The notes under the pieces were generated by a model, which was not told the origin of the DNA, made no database searches, and saw only the letters and a list, made by a program, of their open reading frames with translations. A stretch of 64,000 nucleotides of DNA, from assembly GCA_021166685.1 (NCBI GenBank), contig JAJPEU010000010.1, positions 124,001-188,000 on the forward strand, given 5' to 3'. A program made the translations under genes and the position numbers. Positions within the stretch are counted from its first letter, which is position 1. Each line of letters begins with the position of its first letter. This DNA is from Sulfurovum sp. GTDB lineage: Bacteria > Campylobacterota > Campylobacteria > Campylobacterales > Sulfurovaceae. Positions 6,556-24,841 of the stretch are shown here, in pieces.

Positions 6556-7431
6556 ATGAAAAAAGAGACATTGAAAAAAAGAACTAAAATCGCAAATAAT
6601 ATTATGTACTATATCTATACACATATAGATACGCATATAGATATTGAAGAGTTGAGCAGGGATCTCTCAGTAAGCAAATTTCATATGCATAGGATATTCA
6701 AAGAGGCTTTCGGAAAAAATATTTATGAGAACATCAAATCTATCCGGCTTCAAAAAGCTTCCAATCTGTTGCTGACCAATAAATTTTCGACTATTTCCGC
6801 CATAGCAAATATGTGTGGCTACAGTTCCCAATCCTCTTTCATAAAAGCATTTACCGAACGCTTTGAAATGACTCCCAAAGCATGGAAAAGCGGCGGATAC
6901 AAAACGTATTCAAATCAGATCTTGCAACAATCCAAAACGGCGATGGAGTCTGATGCTGATTTTAGTACATTGACGCCAACTATCGTCAAAATGCCTATAT
7001 TTGAAAGTTATTATATACGCAACAGGGGATACAACGTCAACATCAAACAAGCGTGGCAAAAACTTCACACATGGATACTCAACCATGATATCTCTGAGTA
7101 TAAACAAATCGCTCTTTTTCATGACAATCCAACCATCACACCTCTTGACGAATGTCAGTATATCGCATGCGTGGTCGTTGAAAAAGAAGAGAATATTCCA
7201 AATGATCGTTTGCCTAAATTCAAAATATCTGATGGGGTGTATGCGAAATTTGATTTGCAGGGCAAACAGGGGGACATTTTGAAAATGATACATTGGGTCT
7301 ATCATGAATGGCTTCCGGCAAGCGAATATGAAACGACCACCAAACCTTCTTATGTTATTTACCGCAAGAACAATTTTTTGTCAGAAGATAACACATTTGA
7401 TTTAAGTTTTTATGTTTCTGTAAAATTTTAA
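6556..7431 (+). CDS. AraC-family regulator with GyrI-like ligand domain
   Basis: 291 residues. The N-terminal 105 residues hold the two helix-turn-helices of AraC/XylS proteins: LSRDLSVSKFHMHRIFKEAF (about 35-54) and ISAIANMCGYSSQSSFIKAF (about 80-99). Residues 130-291 match the GyrI/Rob/BmrR-type small-molecule binding domain, starting PTIVKMPIFESYYIRNRGY. This order (DNA-binding first, sensor second) is the Rob/SoxS-related arrangement that often controls efflux or drug response. It is divergent from the biotin carboxylase gene and lies just upstream of the ABC/NnrS operon. Its target and ligand are unknown; the local ABC operon is one candidate. Confidence 0.85.
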   Translation: MKKETLKKRTKIANNIMYYIYTHIDTHIDIEELSRDLSVSKFHMHRIFKEAFGKNIYENIKSIRLQKASNLLLTNKFSTISAIANMCGYSSQSSFIKAFTERFEMTPKAWKSGGYKTYSNQILQQSKTAMESDADFSTLTPTIVKMPIFESYYIRNRGYNVNIKQAWQKLHTWILNHDISEYKQIALFHDNPTITPLDECQYIACVVVEKEENIPNDRLPKFKISDGVYAKFDLQGKQGDILKMIHWVYHEWLPASEYETTTKPSYVIYRKNNFLSEDNTFDLSFYVSVKF

Positions 7432-7481
7432 AAATATTGATGCAAGTCAAGTCTGAATCATTGTTTTTTGTAGTATAATTT

Positions 7482-7496
7482 TAATAATCATTATTA
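7482..7496. promoter_or_regulatory. Fur-box-like palindrome
   Basis: TAATAAT-C-ATTATTA is a perfect 7-1-7 palindrome (8-1-8 if extended to 7481-7497). It differs from the Fur core TGATAAT-N-ATTATCA at one position in each arm. It sits 37 bases before the ATG of the ABC binding-protein gene, overlapping the expected promoter (TATAAT at 7474-7479). Iron repression of the operon is inferred. Confidence 0.55.
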
Positions 7497-7532
7497 ATAT
7501 GATAAAATTTACAATCCGAACAGGAGAAACAT

Positions 7533-8504
7533 ATGCAATTAATAGTAAAAATAGTAATGATCGCTTTTTTCATGCAAACTATAGCTTTTGGAAATCAAAA
7601 AAATATCGTACTAAGCGGACCTATCGCGACTGCATCGCATCCGTTTTTCAAAATCATAGAAGACAACAGCTTGAATGATGTAGCATCCAAGGTTGAGTTT
7701 AAAGTATGGAATAATCCAGACGAACTCAGAGCGATGCTTCTTAACAAACAAGTTGATTTTGTTGCAATTCCGACCAATGTCGCCGCAAATTTATACAATA
7801 AAAAAATCCCGCTGGAATTGATGAATGTTTCCGTGTGGGGTATTTTGGATATCGTAAGCAGAGATTTTGATATCAAAAGCATAGAAGATTTAAAAGGCAA
7901 AGAGGTGGTAATACCGTTTAGGGGAGACATGCCCGATATCATCTTTCAGGCTTTGCTCAAAAAAGCCGGAATGGACAGCAAAAAAGATGTGACGCTTAAA
8001 TTTGTTCCGACTCCTCCCGATGCGGTAACCTCTTTAATGCTTAGACAAAGCGATACGGTGCTTTTGGCGGAGCCTGCCACTTCGATGGTAATGAGAAAAA
8101 CCGGCTCGTTTCCTTTGAAACTGGTAGCACCCGAGATAAAAAGAGTGCTCAATATAGAAGATGAGTGGGGCAGAGTGACAAATACGGAAAACAAATTACC
8201 CATAGCGGGTATCGCAACGTTTGCAGATATGGATGAGCATACCAAAAAAAGAGTGGACGAGGAGTATAAAAAAGCGCTTGAGTGGTATAAGCAAAACCCG
8301 AAAGAGGCTGCAGCGTTGACTGCAAAATATCTTAAGATGTTTGATAAGGAAGTGATCGAAGATTCTATAGGGTTCGTAAAACTTGAGTACAAAAATGCCC
8401 AAGATTCCAAAAAAGAGTGTGAAAGTTTTTTTGGTGAGATGTTGGAGATTGAGCCTAAACTCATAGGCGGAAAATTGCCTGAAAGCGGGTTTTACAGCAA
8501 ATGA
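7533..8504 (+). CDS. ABC transporter substrate-binding protein (NitT/TauT type)
   Basis: 323 residues with an N-terminal signal sequence (residues 1-20, ending TIAFG). The fold is the NMT1/SsuA/TauA-like periplasmic binding protein: an opening strand IVLSGPIATASHPFFKIIED, then a conserved segment SIEDLKGKEVVIPFRGDMPD (about 115-134) that forms the ligand hinge. It delivers a small solute to the adjacent permease. The ligand is not predictable: nitrate, sulfonate, pyrimidine and cofactor precursors all occur in this family. RBS AGGAGA precedes the ATG. First gene of an operon with permease, ATPase, NnrS and HPP genes, under a Fur-like box. Confidence 0.85.
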   Translation: MQLIVKIVMIAFFMQTIAFGNQKNIVLSGPIATASHPFFKIIEDNSLNDVASKVEFKVWNNPDELRAMLLNKQVDFVAIPTNVAANLYNKKIPLELMNVSVWGILDIVSRDFDIKSIEDLKGKEVVIPFRGDMPDIIFQALLKKAGMDSKKDVTLKFVPTPPDAVTSLMLRQSDTVLLAEPATSMVMRKTGSFPLKLVAPEIKRVLNIEDEWGRVTNTENKLPIAGIATFADMDEHTKKRVDEEYKKALEWYKQNPKEAAALTAKYLKMFDKEVIEDSIGFVKLEYKNAQDSKKECESFFGEMLEIEPKLIGGKLPESGFYSK

Positions 8505-9283
8505 AATTTATTTTAAAAGTACTGAAAGATTTTCCATGGTTTTTGTGGAGCGGGTGGGGTGCTGTTGCTTCCATCTTTTTGTTTATCGCCCTTTGGGATG
8601 TGGGATATCAGCTTTATGGCGAATTGGTGCTTCCTTCGCCGAAAGAAACTTTTGGCGCAGTGGTTGGATTCTTTGATGATGAAGATCTCACAAGAGACAT
8701 GATTCTTACACTTACAAGAGCGGTTATTGGATTTGCTGCTGCTTTGGTGATCGGTTCTGTTTTGGGGCTTATGGCAGGATTTTTTGCTACAGCTTCTATC
8801 ATGAGCAGGCCTATTGTTACTATTTTGGTTGGAATGCCTCCGATTGCATGGGTGGTGCTTGCCATGATCTGGTTCGGGATGGGGGATACCAGTGTGATCT
8901 TTACGGTGGTTATTGCTTCCTTTCCGATTGTTTTTGTCGGTGCGATGCAGGGGACTAGAACGATAGAGGGCGAACTTAAAGAGATGGTAGACAGTTTTGG
9001 ATTGTCGCTGTGGCAGAAATTTACCAATCTTTATTTTCCTCATATCTTTTCTTATATCTTTCCTGCCTGGGTAAGCGGATTGGGAATGAGCTGGAAGATT
9101 GTCGTGATGGCAGAGCTTTTAAGCAGCAGCGACGGCATAGGAGCGGCTTTGGCAGTCGCAAGAAGTCAGCTGGATACAACCGTTGCGCTTGCGTTGGTGG
9201 TCGTGATGATAGGTTCGCTTTTGTTTTTGGAGTATATTGTATTGGAACCCATTAAAAAAGAGGTGGAAGCATGGAGAGATTAG
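8501..9283 (+). CDS. ABC transporter permease (SsuC/TauC type)
   Basis: 260 residues with about six membrane helices. The EAA-type cytoplasmic loop that docks on the ATPase lies around EMVDSFGLSLWQKFTNLYFP (about 159-178), followed by the helix FSYIFPAWVSGLGMSWKIVV. Family: binding-protein-dependent permeases of the nitrate/sulfonate/taurine group. It overlaps the binding-protein gene by 4 bp (ATGA) and the ATPase gene by 13 bp, so translation is tightly coupled. It forms the inner-membrane channel of the importer. Confidence 0.9.
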   Translation: MKFILKVLKDFPWFLWSGWGAVASIFLFIALWDVGYQLYGELVLPSPKETFGAVVGFFDDEDLTRDMILTLTRAVIGFAAALVIGSVLGLMAGFFATASIMSRPIVTILVGMPPIAWVVLAMIWFGMGDTSVIFTVVIASFPIVFVGAMQGTRTIEGELKEMVDSFGLSLWQKFTNLYFPHIFSYIFPAWVSGLGMSWKIVVMAELLSSSDGIGAALAVARSQLDTTVALALVVVMIGSLLFLEYIVLEPIKKEVEAWRD

Positions 9284-10008
9284 AAGTTAAAAACCTAAAC
9301 CATTCGTTTGGTTTTTTTAGGGTCTTGGAAGATATCAATTTTACGCTTGAAAAAGGAAAAGTGATCTCAATTGTGGGGCCAAGCGGCGGTGGAAAAACCA
9401 CACTTTTGCATCTTTGTGCAGGTTTGCTTGATCTTACCGAAGGCGAAATCGTCAATACGTTTAAAAGCAGTTCTTTTGCCTTTCAGGAGCCAAGACTTCT
9501 TCCTTGGAAGAGTGTGCTTGAGAATATTTCTTTGGGACTTATCGCCAAAGGGATTTCCCAAAAAGAGGCTGATATGAGGGCCACAAATATCGCTCTTGAA
9601 TTCGGACTTGAACTTAAAGATCTAGAGAAATTCCCCAAAGATCTAAGCGGCGGCATGAAACAAAGGGTAAGCTTCGCAAGAGCGCTGGTGGTGGAGCCTG
9701 GTTTGCTTTTTTTGGATGAGCCTTTTTCTGCACTGGATATCGGACTCAAAAAAGAGTTGCAAAATCATCTCATCGATTATATTGCACATCATAATCTAAC
9801 GATTTTATTTATTACGCATGATATCATGGAAGCAATTCGGCTGAGCAACGAAATACTGCTTCTTAAAAGCGATCCCGGAGAAATAGTGAAACATATCAAA
9901 ATACCCACTCCGCAAATAGAAAGAAGTGACAAAGAGGTGTTTGATATGATGATTGAACTGCTCAAAGATAAAGACATACTTAATACATTTGAACTGGAGA
10001 TTAAATAA
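9271..10008 (+). CDS. ABC transporter ATP-binding protein (SsuB/TauB type)
   Basis: 245 residues. Walker A GPSGGGKTT (about 35-43), ABC signature LSGGMKQRV (about 128-136) and Walker B LLFLDEPFSALD (about 147-158) are all intact, followed by the switch histidine in LFITHD. It supplies ATP-driven transport for the preceding permease. The start ATG lies inside the permease 3' end, with an AGAGGTGG ribosome site just before it. The stop TAA overlaps the NnrS start (TAATG). Confidence 0.9.
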   Translation: MERLEVKNLNHSFGFFRVLEDINFTLEKGKVISIVGPSGGGKTTLLHLCAGLLDLTEGEIVNTFKSSSFAFQEPRLLPWKSVLENISLGLIAKGISQKEADMRATNIALEFGLELKDLEKFPKDLSGGMKQRVSFARALVVEPGLLFLDEPFSALDIGLKKELQNHLIDYIAHHNLTILFITHDIMEAIRLSNEILLLKSDPGEIVKHIKIPTPQIERSDKEVFDMMIELLKDKDILNTFELEIK

Positions 10009-11231
10009 TGGCAAACGCGACAAAACATTATCTTCATTACCCCGAGGAAGAAAATGTACCCATTTATTTGGCTTACGGGTTTAGACCCATCTTTTTGCTG
10101 CTTGCTCCCTACATCATTCTTACTACGGTTGTATGGGCTTTTGTATGGGCAGGAGTGATTAATCCTTTTGGTAATTATATGTTGGAGTGGCACATCTATG
10201 AATATCTTTTCGGCATCGGAGTGGCGGGGATTATGGCGTTTGTTTTTACCGGTGTTCCTGAACTTTTTCCCGGGGTTGTTCCGCTGATTGGTAAAAAATT
10301 AAAATACGTGATCCTGCTTTGGATAGCCGGCAGGATAAGTTTTTGGATGATCGATATTCTTCCTCTCTTTTTGGTGGCTCTCATCAATCTGTCTTTGCTT
10401 GTAGTTGTTATCGCATGGGCTTTTAAGCCTGTGGTACTTGACCCGCTGCAAAGACATGCCTCTTTGGGATATGCACTGGCGACGATGCTGATCGTAGAAC
10501 TATGGTTTTATGGTTCCATGATGGGGATTTTTGAAACGCCGGCATTGGAGATTTTAAAAGCGGCATTGAGCATTATGATGATCCTTCTGCTTTTGGCGTT
10601 GCGAAGAGTCAATATGGAAGTTATCAATGAAATCATGGAAGATGAGGGAATGGATGACAAATTTTTCGCCAAACCTTTCAGGTACAATCTGGCTATTTTC
10701 AGTATCGCTTTGTTTACAGTAGTAGAATTTTTTTACGGGACAAACTCAGCGTTGGGATGGATAGGATTGGCTGCATTTGCAGCCATTTTGGGTATTTTGA
10801 ATGACTACAATCTTGAATTTGAAAAAATTACATTTAAACCGTATACGATGTATTTGTCATTGATTTTTGTGCTGATGGCTTGCGGGTACGGCTTTATGGG
10901 GGTTGATATCCTTTATGGGCAGGGGGCGCTGCAAAATCACTTTAGGCATTTTTTGAGTACGGGAGCTTTCGGGCTGAGTTTTTACATGGTGATGGTGATC
11001 GTCTCATACGTGCACACCGGAAGACATCTAACATCAAATAAGTTGATGATTTTAAGCGTACTGTTGATAGTTGTTGCTACAATTGCGCGGATCAGTATCG
11101 CATATTTTCCGCAAGCGGCAAATATGCTTTATGTTTTGTCCGCAATCATTTGGATACTCCCTTTTGGGATCTATTATGCGACATTCTATCGCTATTTGCT
11201 TTTGCCAAGGGCTGACGGAGTACAAGGCTGA
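10008..11231 (+). CDS. nnrS: NnrS family haem/copper membrane protein
   Basis: 407 residues with roughly twelve hydrophobic segments. The N-terminal stretch LAYGFRPIFLLLAPYIIL (about 19-36) and the conserved WHIYEYLFGIGVAGIMAFVF (about 61-80) are hallmarks of NnrS. The histidines in WHIYE and in HFRHFLSTGAFG (about 315) are the expected haem/metal ligands. In denitrifiers NnrS protects against nitrosative stress. Here it is translationally coupled to an ABC importer and followed by an HPP protein, with no denitrification gene nearby, so a link to NO, nitrite, haem or copper handling is inferred from family only. Confidence 0.85.
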   Translation: MANATKHYLHYPEEENVPIYLAYGFRPIFLLLAPYIILTTVVWAFVWAGVINPFGNYMLEWHIYEYLFGIGVAGIMAFVFTGVPELFPGVVPLIGKKLKYVILLWIAGRISFWMIDILPLFLVALINLSLLVVVIAWAFKPVVLDPLQRHASLGYALATMLIVELWFYGSMMGIFETPALEILKAALSIMMILLLLALRRVNMEVINEIMEDEGMDDKFFAKPFRYNLAIFSIALFTVVEFFYGTNSALGWIGLAAFAAILGILNDYNLEFEKITFKPYTMYLSLIFVLMACGYGFMGVDILYGQGALQNHFRHFLSTGAFGLSFYMVMVIVSYVHTGRHLTSNKLMILSVLLIVVATIARISIAYFPQAANMLYVLSAIIWILPFGIYYATFYRYLLLPRADGVQG

Positions 11232-11256
11232 TCTTACAAAGTGCCAGAGGATACCA

Positions 11257-11805
11257 ATGAAATCGTATTTGAATAAAATGAGGCCGAAAACAAAAAATCC
11301 GCCTCGCAAAAAGGTGAGCAAGATTTTATGGTCAGCCTTGGGGTCTTTTTTGGGTATCTACTTTTTGGCAGTATTTGGCAAACTGTTTTCTTTTGAAGAG
11401 AGTATTTTTCTGCTCGGTTCCTTTGGTGCTTCGGCTGTACTCATCTACGGTGCACCCGAAGCCCCTTTTTCGCAACCCAGAAACCTCATAGGCGGGCACA
11501 TGATCTCCGCGTTTGTAGCAGTGGCATTGGTAAAGTGCTGTCAAAATATTTTTTCATTGGAAATTTTATGCGCGCTTGGTGTCGCATTGGCAGTGCTGGC
11601 GATGCATCTTACCCGCACCATCCATCCTCCCGGCGGTGCGACTGCGCTTATTTATGTGATGGGTACTGATTTTATCCAGGGGTTCGGCTGGCTTTATCCT
11701 TTTGCTCCGATAGGAGTAGGTGCAGTAGTAATGCTTCTTGTGGCGTTGTTGGTCAATAACCTTTCTTCTAATGAAAAAAGACACTATCCTCAATACTGGG
11801 TTTGA
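11257..11805 (+). CDS. HPP family membrane protein
   Basis: The ATG at 11257 has AGAGG six bases upstream and lies 25 bp after nnrS; a longer in-frame extension to 11071 overlaps nnrS and is not credible. The 182-residue product has four to five membrane helices. It carries the family-defining HLTRTIHPPGGATALIYV (about 116-133), whose His-Pro-Pro names the family, plus the earlier FGASAVLIYGAPEAPFSQPR. Some HPP proteins of plastids and cyanobacteria transport nitrite. With the NnrS neighbour, a nitrogen-oxide function is plausible but unproven. Confidence 0.8.
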   Translation: MKSYLNKMRPKTKNPPRKKVSKILWSALGSFLGIYFLAVFGKLFSFEESIFLLGSFGASAVLIYGAPEAPFSQPRNLIGGHMISAFVAVALVKCCQNIFSLEILCALGVALAVLAMHLTRTIHPPGGATALIYVMGTDFIQGFGWLYPFAPIGVGAVVMLLVALLVNNLSSNEKRHYPQYWV

Positions 11806-11821: not shown

Positions 11822-12133
11822 TTAGAAAAACAGCCATACAAGCAAGGCGATACCAAGAAGAAGATTGATCCAGCTTCCGCCGCTCTCGAACAGCATTACT
11901 AAAAATTCGTACCAGTAATGTGTGATGCCTGAGGGGTTGGCGGGCAGTGCTTCTTTGGCAAACTTGGTGATCTCATCCCCCCAGATAAATGCAACAATTT
12001 CCGGAATAATGAAAAAAAGAATCACTCCCGCAAATCCCCATAGGGATTTTTCGGGTTTTAGTGATGTTAATGCTTTTTTGGCTGCAGGGTTTTGGATAAG
12101 TTTTTGGGTTTTGAGTTTTATTTTAGTTTGCAT
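11822..12133 (-). CDS. small hypothetical membrane protein
   Basis: 103 residues with two membrane segments, WGFAGVILFFIIPEIVAFIW (about 32-51) and SWINLLLGIALLVWLFF (87-103, at the very C terminus). The basic N terminus (KIKLKTQKL) should face the cytoplasm. The short stretch between helices, rich in Trp/Tyr and Gly, would be periplasmic. Family not recognised. Convergent with the HPP gene, 16 bp apart. Confidence 0.65.
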   Translation of the reverse strand: MQTKIKLKTQKLIQNPAAKKALTSLKPEKSLWGFAGVILFFIIPEIVAFIWGDEITKFAKEALPANPSGITHYWYEFLVMLFESGGSWINLLLGIALLVWLFF

Positions 12134-12220: not shown

Positions 12221-12718
12221 TTACAGCTGAACAAATGTTTCCGGTTTGACGCCGCAAATAGGGCAGTTTTGTGTGGGAGTGCCGAGTTCTATATAGCCGC
12301 ATATCGGACACAGATAAATCGTTACTTCATCCAGATCCTTTCCTTCTTTAGCAGCTTGAAGCGCTTTTGTATAAAGCTGTGCATGTACTTTTTCGGCTTC
12401 AAGTGCATAACCGAACATTTTTTTGGCTTTGTGGTTTTCGGCCACAGCCTGTTCATACATAGGCGGATACATGTCTTCAAACTCGTAGGTTTCTCCGCCG
12501 ATGGCTGCCTCAAGGTTTTCTATGGTAGAGCCTACTTTGTCCATCGCTTTGAAGTGTGCTTCTGCATGTATGCGTTCAGCTTCTGCTGTGGTGCGAAACA
12601 GTTTTGCTATATTTGCAAATCCGTCTTTTTCTGCTTTTTTGGCAAATGCGCTGTATTTTTGATAGGCTTCGCTCTCGCCGCAAAATGCAGTCTCTAAGTT
12701 TTCCTTCGTTGTCGGCAT
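12221..12718 (-). CDS. rubrerythrin family protein
   Basis: 165 residues from the ATG at 12718 (five bases after GGAGG; the ATG at 12721 is too close to that site). The ferritin-like four-helix bundle shows di-iron ligands in CGESEAYQKYSAFAKKAE (about 13-30), EAERIHAEAHF (about 46-56) and ALEAEKVHAQLY (about 105-116). A C-terminal rubredoxin-like iron site is formed by YLCPICGYIE and NCPICGVKP. Rubrerythrins reduce hydrogen peroxide in microaerophiles and anaerobes, taking electrons through the rubredoxin centre. Single gene, read leftward. Confidence 0.92.
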   Translation of the reverse strand: MPTTKENLETAFCGESEAYQKYSAFAKKAEKDGFANIAKLFRTTAEAERIHAEAHFKAMDKVGSTIENLEAAIGGETYEFEDMYPPMYEQAVAENHKAKKMFGYALEAEKVHAQLYTKALQAAKEGKDLDEVTIYLCPICGYIELGTPTQNCPICGVKPETFVQL

Positions 12719-12886
12719 CATAGCCTCCTTCTTTTTGGTATGGTGATTGATTGTATCGTCTTGGCACTTAAATGTGTATGGGGTTTTGCCCAGTTTTTAG
12801 AGGGATGAAATAAGATCTTTGAATTCTAAATCAAGTTTTTAATAAAAGCAAATTGTTTTCCTGCGGGATAGTCTATGAACACTAGT

Positions 12887-13600
12887 TTAAACGATATGTT
12901 CATTGTTCTGTGTTTCAGAGATAATGATTTTTTTATTTTCGATCTTCAAGATTTTATCACAGTAGACAAGCATTCTCTCATCATGCGTTACCATGATGAT
13001 GGCAACATTTTGTTCCTGCGCTATTTTTTTAAGCATTTTCACGACACTGACGGAACGCTCCACGTCCAGTGCCGCCGTTGGCTCGTCAGCGAGGATGATT
13101 TCCGGTTCATTTGCGAGTGCCCTGGCGATCGCAACCCGTTGGTTTTGTCCGCCGGAAAGCTGCGAGGGCATGGATTTTGCTTTTTCTGCGATCTCCAGAT
13201 ACTCCAGCAGCTCCATCGCTTTGGCATGCGCTTTGTCTTTTGTTAAGCCGTTGGTTTGGGGCAGAAGGGTGACATTGTCTATCACATTCATAAAGGGGAT
13301 AAGATAATGCGATTGAAAGATAAAACCTATTTTTTCGCGGCGGATGCGGCGGGTATCACTGCCTAGCCAGCGGTCATTGTAAACCGCTTCTTCTCCAAGC
13401 CATATCTTCCCCGAAGTAGGCTCAAGCACACATCCGATCATCATCAGCAAAGTGGTTTTCCCCGCCCCGCTGGGCGCAATGAGTGCGACCAGTTCGCCTT
13501 TATTGACCACAAAAGAAGCTCCGTCGATCACATTGACAAGGCTTTCGCCTTGACCAAACTTTTTAACCAGATTTTCAACACGAATGCCTTGTGTATCCAT
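12887..13600 (-). CDS. ABC exporter ATP-binding protein (MacB/LolD/DevA type)
   Basis: 237 residues. Walker A reads APSGAGKTTLLMMIG (about 42-56), with alanine at the usual first glycine but the GxGKT core intact. The signature is LSGGQNQRVAIARAL (about 143-157) and Walker B EIILADEPTAALD (about 162-174). This subgroup energises FtsX-type permeases that work mechanically on periplasmic partners. It is the last gene of a four-gene operon, one base after the permease stop. Substrate unknown; macrolide, lipid, peptide or metal export all occur in relatives. Confidence 0.88.
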   Translation of the reverse strand: MDTQGIRVENLVKKFGQGESLVNVIDGASFVVNKGELVALIAPSGAGKTTLLMMIGCVLEPTSGKIWLGEEAVYNDRWLGSDTRRIRREKIGFIFQSHYLIPFMNVIDNVTLLPQTNGLTKDKAHAKAMELLEYLEIAEKAKSMPSQLSGGQNQRVAIARALANEPEIILADEPTAALDVERSVSVVKMLKKIAQEQNVAIIMVTHDERMLVYCDKILKIENKKIIISETQNNEHIV

Positions 13601-13601
13601 C

Positions 13602-14750
13602 TTACCCTCCTATCGCTGCGGCAGGATCAGCATGGATCACTTTGGCGACACCGACAAAAGAAGAGAGTATGGATGCTACGATAACCACACCAAAAAGCAT
13701 CCAGGCATCAGGGATTTCCAATACGATCCGTTTGGGAAAATTGTCAGAAATAAGATGTGAAAAAATGTTGCCGAAGATAAAAGCCAGTACACCGAGTATC
13801 AGTGTTTCCTGAACGATCATTTTGATAATCATACTGTTAGGTATGCCTATGAGCTTCATGATGGAAATCTCTTTCATTTTTTCAAGGGTCATGGTGTAGA
13901 TGATCAGTGCGATGATAATTGTAGAAACCACTACCAAAATCGCCGTAAAAAGTCCGATCTGTTTGGAGGAGCGTTCGATAAGATTTTTAGTCAGAATCGC
14001 TTTTTGCTCAGTCCGGGTATAGACACTTTCGTGTTTCCATTTTTTTATTTTGTTTGCCACATTATCGATAACATATCCGGGCTTGACGGTGGCGACAATG
14101 GCATTTGCCATCTTCATCTCTTTGTTTTCCAAAATGCCCCGTGCACGATCACTTCGAATGCGCGCATTGGAGTAAAGGAATTGTAAATTTTGGGCATCCT
14201 TGAGGCTGAGATACACAAGCAGGTCTCCGCCGGAAGAAACGGTATCTCTCGTGACCCCTACGACACGATAGATATCGCGCCCGAGTTTCAAGGTGTCATC
14301 CACTTTGTATCCTGTTTCTTCAGATACCACGATTTGATAATGCTCTTTTGTGAGGGGTTTTCCGGCAGTGAGACGCTCAGGATTGATGGGATTGATCTTC
14401 CCGAAAACATCAAAACCCACCGCCGTAACCCGTATAGGTTTCGTTTCTCCGGGTAACTGTAGGTTTTGAAAGGTTAACGCTTCGCTTTTGTCTATGCCTT
14501 CAAAAGCGCGCAGCGTGTCTTTGAGGTCTTCGTGTACCCGCGATGCTTCGGCAAAAGGACCAAGCGTATCTTCTTGCACAATCCAAAGATCGGCATTGAT
14601 ATCATTAAGCAGAATTTCTGCATCCACCATCATTCCCCTATAGACGCCGATCATGATCAGTACGATACCCAACAGCATGCCCACGCCCATCGCCGTGACC
14701 AGAAACTTCCCGAGCGTATGGGTGATATCTTTTTGTGCAAGATTGATCAA
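13602..14750 (-). CDS. ABC exporter permease (FtsX/MacB-core type)
   Basis: 382 residues: one N-terminal helix (about 15-37, LGKFLVTAMGVGMLLGIVLI), a long periplasmic domain (about 40-255), then three C-terminal helices (about 260-375), the standard FtsX/DevC topology. The start overlaps the adaptor stop by 4 bp (ATGA). With the TolC protein and adaptor it would build a tripartite exporter that pushes substrate from the periplasm through TolC. Confidence 0.87.
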   Translation of the reverse strand: MINLAQKDITHTLGKFLVTAMGVGMLLGIVLIMIGVYRGMMVDAEILLNDINADLWIVQEDTLGPFAEASRVHEDLKDTLRAFEGIDKSEALTFQNLQLPGETKPIRVTAVGFDVFGKINPINPERLTAGKPLTKEHYQIVVSEETGYKVDDTLKLGRDIYRVVGVTRDTVSSGGDLLVYLSLKDAQNLQFLYSNARIRSDRARGILENKEMKMANAIVATVKPGYVIDNVANKIKKWKHESVYTRTEQKAILTKNLIERSSKQIGLFTAILVVVSTIIIALIIYTMTLEKMKEISIMKLIGIPNSMIIKMIVQETLILGVLAFIFGNIFSHLISDNFPKRIVLEIPDAWMLFGVVIVASILSSFVGVAKVIHADPAAAIGG

Positions 14751-15892
14751 TAGTGTATCCTCATTCCTTCCGAAAGGGTTTTTTTGCCCGCATCAGGGAT
14801 GATGAGCAGGCTTTCTTTGGTAAGCCCTTGCGCAATACCGGCTTCATGTTCGCCTCGAACGGTTATTTTTAGCGGTTGAAAATGTGCGCGATTTTCTTTT
14901 GCTGTCCAGACACCGGTATGACCGGCATATTGGCGCAGCAAAGACAGGGGTATTTTGATAGTATCGTCAACCGTTTCTACCGTAACGGATACTTCGGCTT
15001 GTTCGTTCATATAAAATGGAATAGGAAGCGTATCGAATGCCACGTTAACCTCCCGCTCCTGGGTCACCGCATCACTCATGGCGCTAATGCGCGCTACGTA
15101 ACCCGAAAGCGGTTTGCTGTTGCGCGAGCGCAAGAAAATTTCCGCAGGGTTCCCTGTTTTTACTTTTCCGCTGATGCGTTCGTCGATATAAGCTTTTATC
15201 CAGACTGTTTTGGGGTCAACAATGCGAAATATCGTCTGCGACGGTGTGAGAGTTTGGGCAACTTCGGCATCTTTAGAGATCACGTATCCGTCGATGGGGG
15301 CATACACATGAAAACGTGAAAGTTTTTCACTCAAAGCTTCGATATTTTTTTGCATGCGGCCTGTTTCGCTTTTGCTCGAATCAATATGTGCCAGTGTTGC
15401 CGCTATTTGCGCCTTGATGCCATCTAGATCGGTTTTGGCTTTATCGTACTCGGCCTGCGAGACGTATCCTTGCTCTTTCAGTTTTTTGTAGCGCCCGTAG
15501 GTGAGCAGGGCAAGCTCCTTTTGCGCGTGCAGATTTTCAAGTTCTTTTTGCAGTGCTGTAGATTCTTGGATTGTTTTTTGCAGCACAATTTTTGTTTCTT
15601 CGAGTAACTGGGGAAGATCTACGGGGTCGATAGTGGCCAAAAGTTCTCCTTTTTTGACCCACTGTCCCTGATCGCTTAGAAGAGTCAAAATCTTTCCGCC
15701 CATTTGAGAGCCGACCGGATAGATATCTCGTGCACCGACTTCGCCGATACCGAACACGTTTACTTCAATTTTTCCTTGTTTTGGAGCGGTCGTTTTAAAA
15801 GTTGTTTTGGGTACATATGCCTTGAAGTAAAAAAGTGCCCCTCCTATTGCAATAAGCAAAACGGCTATAGTGTATTTGGCCCATGTTTTCAT
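14747..15892 (-). CDS. periplasmic adaptor (HlyD/MFP family) of ABC exporter
   Basis: 381 residues. A single N-terminal anchor (residues 8-24, TIAVLLIAIGGALFYF) is followed by a lipoyl half-motif (GKILTLLSDQGQWVKKGELL, about 69-88), an alpha-helical hairpin (about 100-195, charged coiled coil) and the returning lipoyl half (RFHVYAPIDGYVISKDAEV). Beta-barrel and membrane-proximal domains follow. It bridges the inner-membrane ABC complex and TolC. Four-bp overlaps with tolC and the permease gene mark one transcription unit. Confidence 0.88.
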   Translation of the reverse strand: MKTWAKYTIAVLLIAIGGALFYFKAYVPKTTFKTTAPKQGKIEVNVFGIGEVGARDIYPVGSQMGGKILTLLSDQGQWVKKGELLATIDPVDLPQLLEETKIVLQKTIQESTALQKELENLHAQKELALLTYGRYKKLKEQGYVSQAEYDKAKTDLDGIKAQIAATLAHIDSSKSETGRMQKNIEALSEKLSRFHVYAPIDGYVISKDAEVAQTLTPSQTIFRIVDPKTVWIKAYIDERISGKVKTGNPAEIFLRSRNSKPLSGYVARISAMSDAVTQEREVNVAFDTLPIPFYMNEQAEVSVTVETVDDTIKIPLSLLRQYAGHTGVWTAKENRAHFQPLKITVRGEHEAGIAQGLTKESLLIIPDAGKKTLSEGMRIHY

Positions 15893-17145
15893 TTTATTTT
15901 TCCTGTAAGATAATCTATACGATTGAGCGTGACGCGTTGTTTGTATCCGATTTCAAGCAACCCCAATTGCGCACTCAGTAAAAAAGACGCAGCATCAAGT
16001 ACTTCTACATAGGTAGACAACTCCTCTTTGTATCGGGCATCTACTACCTCTTGGGCTTCCTTGGCAGAAACCAGCTGTGCCTTTTTGGCTTTCGTACTCT
16101 CTTGGTAGCTCTCAAGATCAAGAAAAAGGTTTTCAAACTCTTCTTCTAGGGCAATGGATTTGGATTCCAGCTGTTCTCGCGCCACGTTTGTTTCGATTTG
16201 CATGCGCTGTTCTTCCGCACTAAGACGCCCGCCGCTATAAAGCGGGACATTCAGAGTCACTCCGATCACATTGGTATCGTATCGGTTGAGCATATCGGTT
16301 TGCGTATGCGATGCGGTAGCATCGATAGAACCAAAATGGCTTGCTTTGGCGGCTTTATGGAGCTTTTGGTTTTTATCGATCTGCTTTGATGCGATTTTGA
16401 TTTGGAGGTTGTCTTTGAGTGCTTGATGCTTTAATGCGTAGGTTTTTTTCAAGCCGATACCACCCGACTTGATGGTTGTGAAATCGAGTTTAACATCTTT
16501 ATTGATACGTATACCAGTGTACAACGCCATGGTGTTACGCGATTTGTCAAATGAAGCTTGCGCTACCTCAAGATCTTCTTTGGCAAGGTAGTGGGCCGCC
16601 TTAAACCGAGCCACGTCAGCCTTTGTTTTAAGGCCTTGCTTATGAAATCCCATCGCTTGCTTATAAAACGCTTCTTTGGCTTTTGCATCTTTACGGCGGA
16701 CATCAATGGCTTCACGCTGAAGCACCATGAGGGCATAGAGAGATTTGATTTTGTATGCCATGACCGCTTTGGCATCTTCTAAAGAAAGTCCTGCGATTTG
16801 TTGTTCTATCTGAGAGGCTTCTGTGAGGGAAGTCGTTTTTGAAAAATCCCAAATTTTCTGCTTAAGCATCACGCCGATAGACCAGCCGTCATCGTCTATG
16901 GTATCAAATTGCCCGGATTGCTGCAAGACGTAAGTGCGCTGAGGATTGTATTCGCCCAGCAGGGCGACCTGAGGCAGGTAATCCGAGCGCGATACGGTGT
17001 AGCTCTCCTCGCTTTGTGCAACTTTGAGCATAAAAATTTTGATATCAGGATGGTGTGTCAATGCTTGGTCCACACACTCTTGCATGCTAAGGATTTGTGC
17101 CTTCAAAGAGAGCGTGAACAAAACAAAGAACAGCAACTTTTTCAT
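15889..17145 (-). CDS. TolC family outer-membrane efflux protein
   Basis: 418 residues with a cleavable signal (MKKLLFFVLFTLSLKA). Two repeats of the OEP fold are visible: long amphipathic helices at about 25-200 and 230-415. The outer-membrane strand region lies near PLYSGGRLSAEEQRMQIE (about 303-320), a conserved TolC landmark. First gene of the leftward exporter operon. Its 5' end and leader are duplicated in decayed form at 18003-18236, about 1 kb upstream, beyond the FmdE-like gene. Confidence 0.88.
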   Translation of the reverse strand: MKKLLFFVLFTLSLKAQILSMQECVDQALTHHPDIKIFMLKVAQSEESYTVSRSDYLPQVALLGEYNPQRTYVLQQSGQFDTIDDDGWSIGVMLKQKIWDFSKTTSLTEASQIEQQIAGLSLEDAKAVMAYKIKSLYALMVLQREAIDVRRKDAKAKEAFYKQAMGFHKQGLKTKADVARFKAAHYLAKEDLEVAQASFDKSRNTMALYTGIRINKDVKLDFTTIKSGGIGLKKTYALKHQALKDNLQIKIASKQIDKNQKLHKAAKASHFGSIDATASHTQTDMLNRYDTNVIGVTLNVPLYSGGRLSAEEQRMQIETNVAREQLESKSIALEEEFENLFLDLESYQESTKAKKAQLVSAKEAQEVVDARYKEELSTYVEVLDAASFLLSAQLGLLEIGYKQRVTLNRIDYLTGKIK

Positions 17146-21152: not shown

Positions 21153-21167
21153 TGATATGTATTATCA
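21153..21167. promoter_or_regulatory. Fur box 1 of exbB-exbD-hemP operon
   Basis: TGATATG-T-ATTATCA matches the Fur 7-1-7 core TGATAAT-N-ATTATCA at 12 of 14 arm positions. It lies 85 bases before the exbB start, upstream of or at the promoter. Confidence 0.65.
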
Positions 21168-21217: not shown

Positions 21218-21232
21218 TGATAACGAATATCA
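21218..21232. promoter_or_regulatory. Fur box 2 of exbB-exbD-hemP operon
   Basis: TGATAAC-G-AATATCA matches the Fur core at 12 of 14 arm positions and sits 20 bases before the exbB start, after a TATAAT at 21197-21202. The pair of boxes on an iron-uptake operon supports iron repression. Confidence 0.65.
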
Positions 21233-21251: not shown

Positions 21252-21686
21252 TTGGAACAGTTAAAATATGCAGTCGATTACGGCACGCTGGGGATACTTT
21301 TTTGCATGAGTGTCTTGGTCTTTGGATTTGCAATGGAGCGGTGGAGATTTTTTAGAAATATTGACTTTGACAGTTATGAGAGTAAAAATCAGATAGAAAG
21401 AGCAACAACAAAAAATCTCACCATCATCTCGCTTATCAGTTCAAACGCCCCTTATGTAGGGCTTCTGGGTACAGTCGGCGGGATAATGGCGGTCTTTTAT
21501 GAGATCGGTATGAGCGGAGGGGCACTTGATACTTCTAAAGTGATCGTCGGCCTTGCGCTGGCCCTAAAAGTCACTGCCGCAGGCCTTTTGGTGGCGATTC
21601 CTGCGACGATGGTCTATGGCGGGTTGATGCGAAAAGTTGATATCGCAATAAGTGAGTGGGAAGATGCGGTCTTTAAAAAAAGTTGA
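21252..21686 (+). CDS. exbB: ExbB/TolQ-type proton channel protein
   Basis: 144 residues with a TTG start, five bases after AAGGA. Three membrane helices are expected: about 12-27, 60-85 (SSNAPYVGLLGTVGGIMAVF) and 100-122 (VGLALALKVTAAGLLVAIPA). The conserved GLLGTVGGI and ALKVTAAGLLVAIPA belong to the MotA/TolQ/ExbB family. With ExbD it uses the proton gradient to energise TonB. First gene of the Fur-preceded operon; its 3' end overlaps exbD. Short N terminus compared with E. coli ExbB, as in other Campylobacterota. Confidence 0.92.
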   Translation: MEQLKYAVDYGTLGILFCMSVLVFGFAMERWRFFRNIDFDSYESKNQIERATTKNLTIISLISSNAPYVGLLGTVGGIMAVFYEIGMSGGALDTSKVIVGLALALKVTAAGLLVAIPATMVYGGLMRKVDIAISEWEDAVFKKS

Positions 21687-22047
21687 GGGCATCAATGTCG
21701 TGCCGCTTATTGATATCATGCTTGTGCTTTTGGCGATCGTGCTTACGATATCATCGTTTATTGCTTTAGAAAAGATCGAACTTACCCTTCCAGGCGGCAA
21801 AAGTTCATCTAAAATAGAGCCAAAAACATATGACATTGCGATCAGCAGTAACAAGGAGTTTTTCTTCAACAGTGCCAAAGTCAAAAAAGAAGATATCGAA
21901 ACAAAACTATTTGAGATCAAAAAAGAGGATGTCGTTTCCATTCGGGCAGACAAACTTACCCCTTATGAAGAGTTTGTCTTTATAGTAGATATGCTCAAGC
22001 AAAAAGGGGTAGAAAAGATAGCGATGGTGGTACAAAGTGAAAAATAA
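21664..22047 (+). CDS. exbD: ExbD/TolR biopolymer transport protein
   Basis: 127 residues from the ATG at 21664 (a GTG at 21652 is also in frame). One N-terminal membrane helix (about 12-30) follows a short cytoplasmic tail; VVPLIDIMLVLLAIVLTISS contains the membrane aspartate (Asp-16) that carries protons in ExbD. The rest is a periplasmic domain ending KGVEKIAMVVQSEK. Overlaps exbB by 23 bp and hemP by 11 bp. Confidence 0.92.
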   Translation: MRSLKKVEGINVVPLIDIMLVLLAIVLTISSFIALEKIELTLPGGKSSSKIEPKTYDIAISSNKEFFFNSAKVKKEDIETKLFEIKKEDVVSIRADKLTPYEEFVFIVDMLKQKGVEKIAMVVQSEK

Positions 22048-22250: not shown

Positions 22251-22685
22251 ATGAAAAAGATAGCGGTACTATTTTTAACCGTTTTGGCTTTAAATGCAGC
22301 AAATATAGAGGAGAGGTTTCCGGGAGATTATTTTATGATCCATAAAAATTTGCCTCACTATATGCAGGTTTTCAGGATGCATGGGGATGACTCTGTGTTG
22401 GGGTTGGATGCAACGCAAAAACAAAAACTCTCTGCACTTCAAGAATCGGTCGTGCTAAAGATTACGAAAGCTGCAAGTCAAATCAAAGAACTTGAGCTTA
22501 TCGTTCAAAAAAGAGTTGTGCACGAAAATGCCAAAAGCGCAGACCTCAAAGAGCTGATCGCAAAAATCGCAAAGCTAAGAGCAGACTTGACGATGGAGCA
22601 TATCAACTGTATCAACCAGGTACAGCAGGTTCTTACACCAAAACAGCGTCAATTTTTTATCGATAAATTGGGGATAAAGCAATGA
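22251..22685 (+). CDS. Spy/CpxP-like periplasmic protein in iron operon
   Basis: 144 residues with a signal peptide (residues 1-17, ending ALNAA) and an excellent AGGAGGA ribosome site. The mature chain is helical, with a central LGLDATQKQKLSALQESVV (about 60-78) and a terminal VLTPKQRQFFIDKLG (about 127-141), two copies of the LTxxQ-type motif of Spy/CpxP/CnrX-like proteins. These act as periplasmic chaperones or metal sensors. Its last codons overlap the receptor start (ATGA). A gene of this type inside a TonB/HemP operon is uncommon; a role as a metal or haem sensor is speculation. Confidence 0.75.
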   Translation: MKKIAVLFLTVLALNAANIEERFPGDYFMIHKNLPHYMQVFRMHGDDSVLGLDATQKQKLSALQESVVLKITKAASQIKELELIVQKRVVHENAKSADLKELIAKIAKLRADLTMEHINCINQVQQVLTPKQRQFFIDKLGIKQ

Positions 22686-24841
22686 AAAAGATCATATTGC
22701 TAAGCATAGCGGCAGCTTCTTTTGCAGCAGCAACCGAAGTGGTGGAACTAGAACATATTACAACGATTTCAACCGCTACAAAAACGGAAAAAAAGATCGA
22801 CGGCGTTGCGGCCTCGGTCGAAGTAGTCACCGAAGATGAGATAAAAAAAATGGGCGCCGAGTCGCTTAAGGATATTTTAAATAACACCGCGGGCGTAAAT
22901 GTCCAGTACGGTACATTTCCAAGTGCCAGCAGCAAATCAAAGTCTTCAATATCTCTTAGAGGCATGGGGGCAAAAGGAACGCTGTTTTTGGTTGACGGCA
23001 AAAGGCTTGGAGGGGAGGTGGCAAATCCGTATGATTTGGATCGTATCCCGGCGAGCCAAATCGAAAAAATAGAGATCGTCAAAGGCCCCATGAGCACATT
23101 ATACGGTGCAGACGCTACGGGCGGAGTTGTCAATATCATCACCAAAAAACCAAAAAGCGGCAAACCTCAGATTGATTTCGGTGTGCGATATGGGCAAAAC
23201 GGTAACGGCGATGACCAAAACAAAAACGTAAATTTTTCCGTCAGAGGAAAAGAAAATAAACTCGGATACAGTTTGTATCTCAATAAAACCGCTACCACAC
23301 CTTATACTCAAAAAGAGTTGGCAGACGTCTATGTGAAACAAGTAGGCGGGCCAAATCACGGTACCATACAAAAACCTTCAAATATTACCGACGGTACCCC
23401 TTCAGCGCAACTTAAAAGCTTGAGCGATACCTATCTGCATGATGTAACGTACAAAGAAGAGAGCGATATTTTTACGTACGGCGGGCGGATCGAATATGAT
23501 TTGAGCGATGCAGTGATTGCCGGATTTGAGCTCAATGCTTTCACGGAAGAGAGGGAGGGCAGCTATATCGGCTATTTTCATCCATCCAATGTCTCTCCGG
23601 CTCCCGGGCAGAAAATCCCCGTGTTCAATATTCCAGTTGATTCCGAAGATGACAATGAACGGATGGATATGGCCGCTGATGTCAAGATCAAAGCAAGCGA
23701 TGAGCTAAATCTCTTCTTTAGGGCTTACCAAAGCTATTATGAAAAGCGAAACAAAACAACCACGCCGTATTGGAATGAACTTAAATACACCAGTCAAGAA
23801 GCATCGGCGCAAAACGGCATGGACGCCAATGTCGATATCAAAAGCATAGAAGCCATGGCAAACTATCTGTTTCGCGAAAATCATCTGCTTACTTTCGGAG
23901 CAGAGTACAGAGAAGAAGATCGGGAAGGAACAGTATTTGACCCTGACAGTAATGCAATGACGGGCAAAAACGTTGATTATAAAGCGCTTTATTTGCAAGA
24001 TGAATGGATGGTGGATGAATCGCTTAATGTTATTTTGAGCGCCAGATACGATGATATCAGCAATGCCGATGCGAAGGCTACCTTTAAACTTGGAGCGGTA
24101 AAAAACTTTTCCAAAGCGCTGAATGTCAGAGCCAATATCGCACAAGGGTACCGGGCGCCGGATATCAGAGAGCTTTATATCTTTAAAAATACGCCAAGCG
24201 GTGCACAAAGAGGGGCTGAAGTCATAGATGCTTCTGTCGGTAAAACGGAAGTGTATGATTTGCAGCCCGAATCAACCTTGACTTATGAGATCGGCACGAG
24301 TGGAACACTTGGGGCGACGCGATATGATTTGGCGCTTTTTTATAACGACATAGAAGATTTGATCAGCGAAGTCAATAAGGGTGCATACTATACCTTTGAA
24401 AATATCTCCAGCGCGAAAACCTATGGGGCGGAGTTTACGCTCTCTCGCGATTTCAGCGATACCCTCAGCGGAAGTTTGAGCTGGAGCGAGCTGGGAAGCG
24501 AAAACGATCAGACCGGCAAAGAGATCGAGTTCAATCCTGAACGCATTATCGGCGCGAAACTTACCTATCAAGCCACAAGCGACATTGATACAAGTTTGGG
24601 GGTAAAGCATGTAGGGGAGCAGTACTATAAAAAAACAATCAACCGCGGCACTCCTGCCCAAGCGATCATAGACAGCAAAACGGACGCCTTTACGACAGTT
24701 GATTGGAATATCAATTATGCCTATTCTAAAAACTTCTCAATCTACGGCGGAGTCAACAACCTCGCCGATGAGAAAATCGATGATGTGCTGGGAAGCACCA
24801 GCGGAAGATACTTTTTTACAGGGATGAGAGTAAGTTTTTGA
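22682..24841 (+). CDS. TonB-dependent outer-membrane receptor (iron/haem operon)
   Basis: 719 residues with a signal peptide (1-19). The plug domain is seen at about 35-150: SVEVVTEDEIKKMGAESLKD, SSISLRGMGAKGTLFLVDGK and KGPMSTLYGADATGGVVNII. The C-terminal barrel ends in a phenylalanine (GMRVSF), as outer-membrane proteins do. HemP and Fur boxes point to haem or ferric-siderophore uptake. The haem-receptor FRAP/NPNL landmark is altered here (YRAP ... DLQPE) and no histidine lies between its halves, so haem is not assured; a siderophore or other metal complex is equally possible. Confidence 0.88.
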   Translation: MKKIILLSIAAASFAAATEVVELEHITTISTATKTEKKIDGVAASVEVVTEDEIKKMGAESLKDILNNTAGVNVQYGTFPSASSKSKSSISLRGMGAKGTLFLVDGKRLGGEVANPYDLDRIPASQIEKIEIVKGPMSTLYGADATGGVVNIITKKPKSGKPQIDFGVRYGQNGNGDDQNKNVNFSVRGKENKLGYSLYLNKTATTPYTQKELADVYVKQVGGPNHGTIQKPSNITDGTPSAQLKSLSDTYLHDVTYKEESDIFTYGGRIEYDLSDAVIAGFELNAFTEEREGSYIGYFHPSNVSPAPGQKIPVFNIPVDSEDDNERMDMAADVKIKASDELNLFFRAYQSYYEKRNKTTTPYWNELKYTSQEASAQNGMDANVDIKSIEAMANYLFRENHLLTFGAEYREEDREGTVFDPDSNAMTGKNVDYKALYLQDEWMVDESLNVILSARYDDISNADAKATFKLGAVKNFSKALNVRANIAQGYRAPDIRELYIFKNTPSGAQRGAEVIDASVGKTEVYDLQPESTLTYEIGTSGTLGATRYDLALFYNDIEDLISEVNKGAYYTFENISSAKTYGAEFTLSRDFSDTLSGSLSWSELGSENDQTGKEIEFNPERIIGAKLTYQATSDIDTSLGVKHVGEQYYKKTINRGTPAQAIIDSKTDAFTTVDWNINYAYSKNFSIYGGVNNLADEKIDDVLGSTSGRYFFTGMRVSF

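Follow-up and report, generated by a model that had tools for sequence, protein, structure and literature searches.

The window analysed here, a stretch of 64,000 nucleotides from Sulfurovum sp. (G000:C8:124001-188000, part of a 1.80-Mb genome in 21 contigs), contains an operon in which the three genes of an ATP-binding cassette (ABC) importer are followed by nnrS and preceded by a Fur-like operator. The four-gene ABC-NnrS unit, hereafter the cassette, is the subject of this report. Its features, with an HPP gene that follows it, are:

7482 to 7496: Fur-like operator, the perfect 7-1-7 palindrome TAATAATCATTATTA (motif count against shuffles; boxes in relatives)
7533 to 8504, plus strand: periplasmic binding protein of the NitT/TauT (SsuA/NMT1-like) fold (family matches, AlphaFold model, structure comparison)
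8501 to 9283, plus strand: ABC permease (PF00528, BPD_transp_1, 56.6 bits)
9271 to 10008, plus strand: ABC ATPase (PF00005, ABC_tran, 98.1 bits)
10008 to 11231, plus strand: NnrS, ABC-linked subtype (PF05940, 232.7 bits, cut-off 28; 12 predicted long helices)
11257 to 11805, plus strand: HPP membrane protein, a local downstream addition (PF04982, TM_HPP, 184.7 bits, cut-off 27.2)

The palindrome ends 36 bases before the start of the binding-protein gene. Binding protein and permease overlap in ATGA, permease and ATPase over 13 bases, and ATPase and NnrS in TAATG. Because the first three stop codons each overlap the next gene, translational coupling from the binding protein through NnrS is plausible, as a sequence-only reading of this stretch had already proposed. 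The HPP gene has its ATG 25 bases past the NnrS stop.

The linkage is conserved. A scan of 84,980 species genomes gave 432 relatives of the binding protein, of which the best 80 were analysed. Nearly all of these are titled Campylobacterota (L098 and L140 are otherwise titled); a binding protein was recognised in 78, the remaining 2 being left out, 43 have 4 kb on both sides, and the loci L032-L073 and L077-L156 overlap in genomes. In the 43 loci with complete flanks the permease is found in 35 and the ATPase and NnrS in 38; a TonB receptor is present in 10, a barrel that we call c5 in 9, and FeoB or imelysin in 6. Across the 80 loci the order binding protein-permease-ATPase-NnrS occurs 47 times, permease-ATPase-NnrS-binding protein 8 times, a divergent arrangement 4 times and a partial one 9 times, and the binding protein stands alone in 12 (5 of these with complete flanks). 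The permease is 64-73% identical among Campylobacterota core loci. In L187, L188 and L189 the binding protein lies apart, and permease, ATPase and NnrS are found together elsewhere in those genomes. Linkage thus persists through rearrangement, which argues for a joint function.

The closest relatives by binding protein are a Campylobacterota metagenome-assembled genome (L077, 96% identity) and Sulfurovum sp. UBA4779 (L078, 94%). These are the only 2 of the 78 relatives with an HPP gene nearby (1 of 43 among complete-flank loci), and on this count HPP was rejected as a member of the cassette. The five-gene order suggested by the sequence-only reading is therefore kept for its first four genes: HPP does follow the operon in the window but is not a conserved fifth member, and the hint of nitrite transport drawn from it finds no support either.

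Co-occurrence points the same way. Among 248 genomes of the order, at least 134 have some NnrS, and the binding protein is matched in 54. When 397 genomes of the phylum were searched with a profile built on ABC-linked NnrS, 53 genomes had a match of at least 450 bits; the other six were one fragment of 102 bits and five at 60-66 bits. When the binding protein is counted at 42% identity or more, or as a fragment thereof, and the ABC-linked NnrS with its fragments (G117, G247), both are present in 35 of the 248 genomes, one alone in 2 and 2, and neither in 209 (Fisher p 9e-38, shared ancestry ignored). Eight genomes with a binding protein of 29-32% identity were scored as having neither, as were G106 (a 47-residue match) and G055 (a 90-residue NnrS end); in one exception, G241, the contig ends within the permease (L186). 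The order also has a second subtype of NnrS, which in the loci examined is accompanied by neither ABC genes nor a Fur box. For the sequence-only reading, the absence of a conserved linkage of ABC genes to nnrS would have been one half of a refutation; with the 38 of 43 loci, the 35/2/2/209 distribution and the plasmid loci described below, the linkage is more than a quirk of this genome.

We also noted a small membrane protein, c10 (133-141 amino acids), that recurs beside the cassette (L032, L036, L040, L054, L080, L088, L096, L108, L120 and L155). Histidine and FRT residues are common to the six c10 sequences compared, and the one member scanned had no Pfam match.

The operator can be examined in the same comparative way. 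TAATAATCATTATTA lies two mismatches from TGATAATNATTATCA, which we take to be the Fur consensus. The window has a single exact copy of the pattern TAATAATNATTATTA, against 0 of 100 shuffles with one, and this confirms at 7482-7496 the perfect 7-1-7 palindrome close to a Fur box that had been read there. At up to two mismatches TGATAATNATTATCA has 5 matches in the window against 0.66 expected, and 25 sites genome-wide against 6 for the pattern read backwards. The five one-mismatch sites of the genome lie before FeoB (L207; PF02421, 198.6 bits), before a Phenol_MetA_deg barrel (L210), before an iron-sulfur/NrfD-like operon, before a 219-codon open reading frame (ORF) of unknown kind and inside a receptor gene. 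The box-preceded barrel of L210 is 50% identical to a c5 barrel, the alternative outer-membrane protein that adjoins the cassette in other genomes. Given this placement, the consensus is plausibly the Fur operator of this genome. Two sites at 56726 and 56858 fall within an antiporter-like ORF and were taken as chance, and sites inside coding sequence (L206, L212, L214) were not counted as operators.

Boxes with up to two mismatches stand at 79 of 94 operon-gene starts in 68 loci, at a median of 64 bases before the start, and 61 of the 68 loci have one; the backwards motif is found at 2 of the 94 operon starts. Other gene starts in the same loci have a box in 56 of 289 cases, itself far above the 1 of 289 for the backwards motif, and zero-mismatch boxes are equally frequent in the two classes (8/289 other genes, 3/94 operon starts). 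For this count ORFs were picked mechanically, and the background excludes genes labelled FeoB or imelysin but includes divergent neighbours that share an intergenic region; an earlier count, which includes the Campylobacter-like loci, gave 25 of 54 against 35 of 322. The second NnrS subtype has a box at 0 of 12 genes (best, 4 mismatches), 12 of 15 fetched loci having been recognised by regular expression. In L187 the relocated ABC-linked permease start is preceded by a one-mismatch box. Plasmid pACLO of Arcobacter cloacae has three Fur-like sites, one of them (two mismatches) 97 bases before its receptor gene, a weak signal since 13 of 200 shuffles reach three. On the genome sites, the 79 of 94 starts and the 0 of 12 in the other subtype, the operon is plausibly under Fur control, and this part of the sequence-only reading holds on comparative motif evidence.

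By eye, the iron-sulfur/NrfD-like site (L208, about position 2932; C6:7431 of the same genome) carries its one-mismatch box before an operon for an iron-sulfur protein, an NrfD-like protein and a molybdopterin-like protein. A TATAAT seen by eye at 7474-7479 was considered as part of a sigma-70 promoter; the scan gave 3 sites against 2.3 expected, that one unlisted, and no promoter is claimed. Nor do we propose a terminator after the operon, where two weak stems within HPP compare with 1.3 expected.

A second operon with Fur-like boxes lies 14-18 kb downstream of the cassette:

21153 to 21167: Fur-like box, first of a tandem pair, 2 mismatches (motif scan)
21218 to 21232: Fur-like box, second of the pair, 2 mismatches (motif scan)
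21252 to 21686, plus strand: ExbB (TIGR02805, 165.1 bits, over the cut-off of 135.35)
21652 to 22047, plus strand: ExbD (PF02472, 87.1 bits; TIGR02804, 109.1 bits, under the cut-off of 123.45)
22251 to 22685, plus strand: small periplasmic-looking protein, no family match (homologues between cassette genes in L081 and L118)
22682 to 24841, plus strand: plug-bearing TonB-dependent receptor (like cassette-adjacent receptors, including that of L243)
24838 to 25617, plus strand: TonB (PF03544, 58.6 bits)

The window therefore holds the set expected for TonB-driven uptake, a plug-bearing receptor with ExbB, ExbD and TonB. The sequence-only reading mentions neither this operon nor a link to the outer membrane, nor the second NnrS subtype that lacks ABC genes and box. 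The receptor is 68% (L085), 66% (L141), 60% (L032), 59% (L080) and 60% (L034) identical to receptors whose genes immediately precede that of the binding protein, 65% identical to the receptor on pACLO, and about 37-54% identical to most other cassette-adjacent receptors. Such kinship suggests that the outer-membrane part of the system is here separated from the cassette, with Fur-like boxes of its own.

Several neighbours of the cassette concern iron. FeoB lies downstream of NnrS in L034, L085, L093, L104 and L106, and in L187 upstream of the permease with one small ORF between; imelysin genes are near the cassette in L037-L040, L060, L089, L096, L135, L148 and L189 (labels other than those of L034, L037 and L246 rest on BLAST to these, and several loci share one genome). 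A 27-kb plasmid of Nitratiruptor sp. YY08-14 carries a run headed by a Fur-family gene (PF01475, 42.8 bits), itself closely preceded by two boxes; next come a c5-like barrel, the binding protein, permease, ATPase and NnrS. The opposite strand holds an OprD-type porin, ferritin, imelysin, a multihaem cytochrome and FTR1. On pACLO a ChaN gene lies 3' of NnrS.

Other neighbours bring in copper and haem. In a Campylobacter-type version of the cassette (L064-L070, L075 and L076) a receptor-like barrel is present in 8 of 9 loci, the binding protein is 29-31% identical and an NnrS-like gene is found in 7; by eye, L064 and L065 instead carry a siderophore-type binding protein and a FecCD-like permease. 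The one such receptor scanned (L064) matches PF00593 only, with no Plug match, and scores 180 bits against a TonB-copper model whose cut-off is 472. This match, NosL beside the binding protein in L040, pseudoazurin in L249 and L256, hutW/hutX in L255, ChaN in L243 and CobN in L241, together with the record of NnrS as a haem- and copper-binding protein (it is listed as a cuproprotein in the text available of PMC6769254), are what one would expect if the cassette imported copper, a copper chelate or a haem or other tetrapyrrole that NnrS then uses or inserts. We consider this rather unlikely: the TonB-copper score is far under its cut-off, the window receptor reaches 171 bits against haem models (cut-off 317), no better than against others, and both the conserved Fur-like boxes and the FeoB, FTR1, ferritin and imelysin neighbours speak for iron instead.

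The importer itself is of the NitT/TauT type: its binding protein has the SsuA/NrtA/Thi5 fold, and permease and ATPase are encoded by a single gene each. The binding protein has a hydrophobic, signal-peptide-like N-terminus by eye and matches VitK2_biosynth (33.2 bits) and NMT1 (29.6 bits) in Pfam; with a permease matching BPD_transp_1, the window pair is thus not the siderophore-type Peripla_BP_2 and FecCD combination. Its AlphaFold model (pLDDT 90) matches 3hn0 (Z 31.6), PqqT (Z 27), SsuA (Z 27), and CmpA and NrtA (Z 25-26), the top solved structures being 12-23% identical to it in sequence. Among the residues invariant across 28 binding-protein sequences are S35, W59, D63, R66, N82, D132 and D135. 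The predicted fold leaves the ligand unnamed. Uptake of pyrroloquinoline quinone (PQQ) was considered and set aside: PqqT (described in the text available of PMC12124388) is second by fold (Z about 27), yet it is 14% identical and almost tied with other binding proteins. The models listed for the window receptor, 25 of 31, do not include that of the PqqU receptor.

Could this be an ordinary nitrate, sulfonate or vitamin-precursor importer that merely adjoins nnrS? The nearest named families do include SsuA, TauB/TauC and NtrB, but the NCBIfam cut-offs are missed widely, with 57.7 bits against 163.5 for SsuA, 165.3 against 357 for TauB, 78.7 against 342 for TauC and 72.2 against 209 for NtrB (families among the matches listed, for the ATPase the best 25 of 186 models), and a nitrate, sulfonate or taurine importer was rejected on these scores. 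A SAO organometal transporter, high in rank, was rejected likewise (SaoP 109.8 bits against 295, SaoA 154.9 against 360). Linkage to NnrS is conserved across phyla and accompanied by Fur-like boxes in Campylobacterota; the complete-flank linkage, box counts and co-occurrence make mere adjacency very unlikely.

NnrS, the regular partner of this importer, may be structurally closer to the terminal oxidases than its sequence indicates. Its model (pLDDT 89, 12 long helices) matches the cbb3 oxidase subunit I, CcoN, with Z 28.9 (376 residues, 3.5 A) and the nitric oxide (NO) reductase NorB with Z 27.8 (361 residues); haem-copper-oxidase-type matches overall have Z 27-29 over 357-379 residues, and Foldseek E-values are only 0.016 and weaker. 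A haem-copper-oxidase subunit I fold is thus predicted for NnrS. Kinship to CcoN or CtaD at the level of sequence was sought and rejected: with two alignments of relatives, hhalign reaches probabilities of 0.2% and 0.4%, and no solved chain matches NnrS by sequence at E 1.

Oxidases hold the ligands of copper B (CuB) on helices 6 and 7 and the histidines of the low-spin haem on helices 2 and 10. In NnrS, H62 (helix 2), R200, H314 (start of helix 10) and H336 are invariant in all 65 sequences compared (46 ABC-linked, 12 of the other subtype and 7 Campylobacter-type), and neither helix 6 nor helix 7 carries an invariant histidine in this set. The RPLHT histidine of helix 2 in the CcoN of relatives is at residue 61 or 62 in 11 of 16 and at 69 in one, the motif not being found in four. 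On the model, we read NnrS as an oxidase-fold cytochrome without the oxygen-reducing CuB site, the haem-ligand roles of these residues being putative. Residues H7, E65, E85, R109, D116, H150, E204, R401 and D403 are invariant in the 46 ABC-linked NnrS but not among the 12 sequences of the second subtype. By eye, the other subtype (L198, L199, L201, L202, L204 and L205) adjoins an ABC-3-type, zinc-uptake-like permease and a thiol-peroxidase-like gene.

The cassette is not confined to the phylum. A plasmid collection gave 67 records with a match to the binding protein and 135 with one to NnrS, and we examined 19 regions, 15 reached via the binding protein and 4 via NnrS, the latter uncountable for linkage. 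All four genes are present in 12 of the 15 (NnrS is missing in L245, L257 and L259) and in 4 of the 4. These sixteen four-gene loci are from three Campylobacterota, Diaphorobacter, Agrobacterium (2), Azospirillum, Shinella, Bartonella sp. HY328, Cereibacter, Chelatococcus, Rhizobium, Paracoccus, Martelella, a Dysgonomonadaceae record and a Neisseria gonorrhoeae record; L248 and L250 are unannotated. The range of the cassette thus extends to alpha- and betaproteobacteria, in part on plasmids. A TonB-type receptor is near at least 9 of the 16 (L241-L244, L248, L251-L253 and L255), and denitrification or NO genes (nap, nor, NnrU, pseudoazurin, Rrf2) are near 6 (L242, L249, L253, L254, L256 and L258). 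Any explanation must cover both settings, iron with TonB and NO with denitrification.

Two of the records are peculiar. The cassette genes of the Dysgonomonadaceae (L249) and Martelella (L256) loci are the same, and their relative coordinates coincide, possibly a misassignment or a very recent transfer, perhaps one sequence. The Neisseria record (L248, a listed plasmid of 2.17 Mb) has a Campylobacter-type cassette of binding protein, permease, ATPase and NnrS-like gene, with an upstream receptor-like gene that reads as two ORFs.

The denitrification setting would fit a nitrosative-stress operon, in which NnrS guards against NO while the ABC importer brings in an unrelated protective solute and iron control reflects iron as a target of NO. 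Cassette loci of Agrobacterium, Rhizobium, Martelella and Chelatococcus do include nap, nor, NnrU or an Rrf2 regulator, and nnrS is treated as a core gene of the NO regulon in PMC1274295, where the main text available does not use the term ABC transporter. Against this stand the second NnrS subtype, which has neither ABC genes nor Fur box in the loci examined, and the TonB-type receptor near at least 9 of the 16 four-gene plasmid loci; we hold this explanation to be quite unlikely. A published property of NnrS joins the two settings: according to the text available of PMC9246220, the Vibrio cholerae protein does not remove NO directly but keeps the cellular iron pool from dinitrosyl-iron formation, and a similar statement about the iron pool appears in that of PMC11526790. 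Also in the texts available, nnrS is under NtrYX control in iron-limited Paracoccus (PMC9409073) and nnrS under FixK2 is the subject of PMC6710368.

We thus propose that the cassette, under the control of Fur, takes up a small molecule that carries iron, such as an iron chelate, and that NnrS takes part either in redox chemistry or as a guard against NO. Both the solute and the NnrS chemistry are what we infer; we judge the chances of this proposal to be evenly balanced. The ligand would cross the outer membrane through a TonB-dependent receptor (here that of the 21.2-25.6 kb operon) or a Phenol_MetA_deg-type barrel, be captured by the NitT/TauT-type binding protein, and be imported, itself or as its chelator, by the permease and ATPase. 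NnrS would sit beside the importer, most likely giving electrons to the incoming iron or stripping NO from it, and usable Fe(II) may thereby reach FeoB or the cytoplasm.

Several observations weigh against this proposal. The structural relatives found for the binding protein serve nitrate, sulfonates, taurine, thiamine precursors, bicarbonate and PQQ, not siderophores. Both genes are absent from 209 of the 248 genomes, and in G011 a binding protein was found but no NnrS. Neither FeoB nor imelysin is present in 37 of the 43 complete-flank loci, and 24 of the 43 have neither a TonB receptor nor a c5 barrel nearby; the one Campylobacter-like receptor scanned resembles copper receptors. A box of up to two mismatches is present in 1 of 9 Campylobacter-like loci (L066), and the relocated permease starts of L188 (5 mismatches) and L189 (3) are without one. 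In L249, L254 and L258 the cassette stands beside nor, NnrU, pseudoazurin or Rrf2, and the stretch contains neither a TonB receptor nor an iron gene.

The rest of the surroundings can be described briefly. An AraC/Rob-type regulator with a GyrI-like ligand domain (6556-7431, plus strand) lies immediately 5' of the operon, and an ORF of the same length takes this position in L077 and L078. A small protein without Pfam match (11822-12133, minus strand) and a short rubrerythrin (12221-12721, minus strand) are convergent to the HPP gene. The region 12887-17145 (minus strand) holds genes for an ABC ATPase and a MacB/FtsX-type permease plus an adaptor and an outer-membrane efflux protein, the latter two by eye.

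Set beside known systems, the parts are of known kinds; their combination, the Fur-like control and the spread appear to be new. The proposed iron-uptake system is like TonB-dependent siderophore and haem uptake in its Fur-like boxes, plug-bearing receptor, ExbBD-TonB, periplasmic binding protein and ABC importer; unlike those FecB/BtuF and FecCD-type systems, it has a NitT/TauT-kind binding protein and permease and NnrS as a regular partner. SsuABC, TauABC, NrtABCD and PqqT share the binding-protein fold and the ABC architecture, but the cassette protein is 12-23% identical to the top structures, and the cassette has Fur-like control and NnrS as partner. NnrS proteins of NO regulons (Rhodobacter, Vibrio, denitrifiers) are alike in the Pfam NnrS family, the invariant histidines on helices 2 and 10 and the 12 helices, whereas the cassette NnrS is a distinct subtype, ABC-linked and with a Fur-like box. 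CcoN and NorB are alike in predicted fold, with H62 of NnrS on helix 2 against CcoN 61-62 in 11 of 16; unlike them, NnrS has no sequence-profile match and no invariant histidine on helices 6 and 7. The pyoverdine FpvCDEF-FpvG and Fiu-PiuB systems pair an ABC transporter or a receptor with an inner-membrane protein thought to reduce iron, a likeness that would be functional only. No account of the ABC-NnrS cassette was found in the literature searched (open-licence papers without figures, as titles, abstract starts and some passages), nor any paper on NnrS in Sulfurimonas or in Campylobacterota in the open-licence literature; the text available of PMC9927503 reports TonB and iron genes of Arcobacter butzleri and does not name NnrS.

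For NnrS, a protein of NO regulons, the conserved and apparently Fur-controlled four-gene unit supplies a transporter partner and a regulatory context. In many bacteria of vents, sediments and sewage the importer genes are passed on together with this membrane haem protein, known mainly from responses to NO, and NnrS may thus contribute to iron acquisition there. The unit also points to a metal-uptake route that we did not find described, partly plasmid-borne, in vent and sediment Campylobacterota, rhizobia and denitrifiers. If the predicted oxidase fold is right, NnrS would be a structural relative of the haem-copper superfamily, with a haem site open to rational mutation. It is tempting to go further and to see NnrS, with its oxidase fold but no oxidase copper site, as the membrane redox subunit of an ABC importer. 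A cross-phylum, plasmid-borne module would then bring in an iron chelate and, at the membrane, either reduce it or free it of NO, an idea that is possible and, as we see it, on the unlikely side. Were it true, iron supply and NO defence would be one machine, and the NO protection given by free-standing NnrS would be a by-product of iron chemistry.

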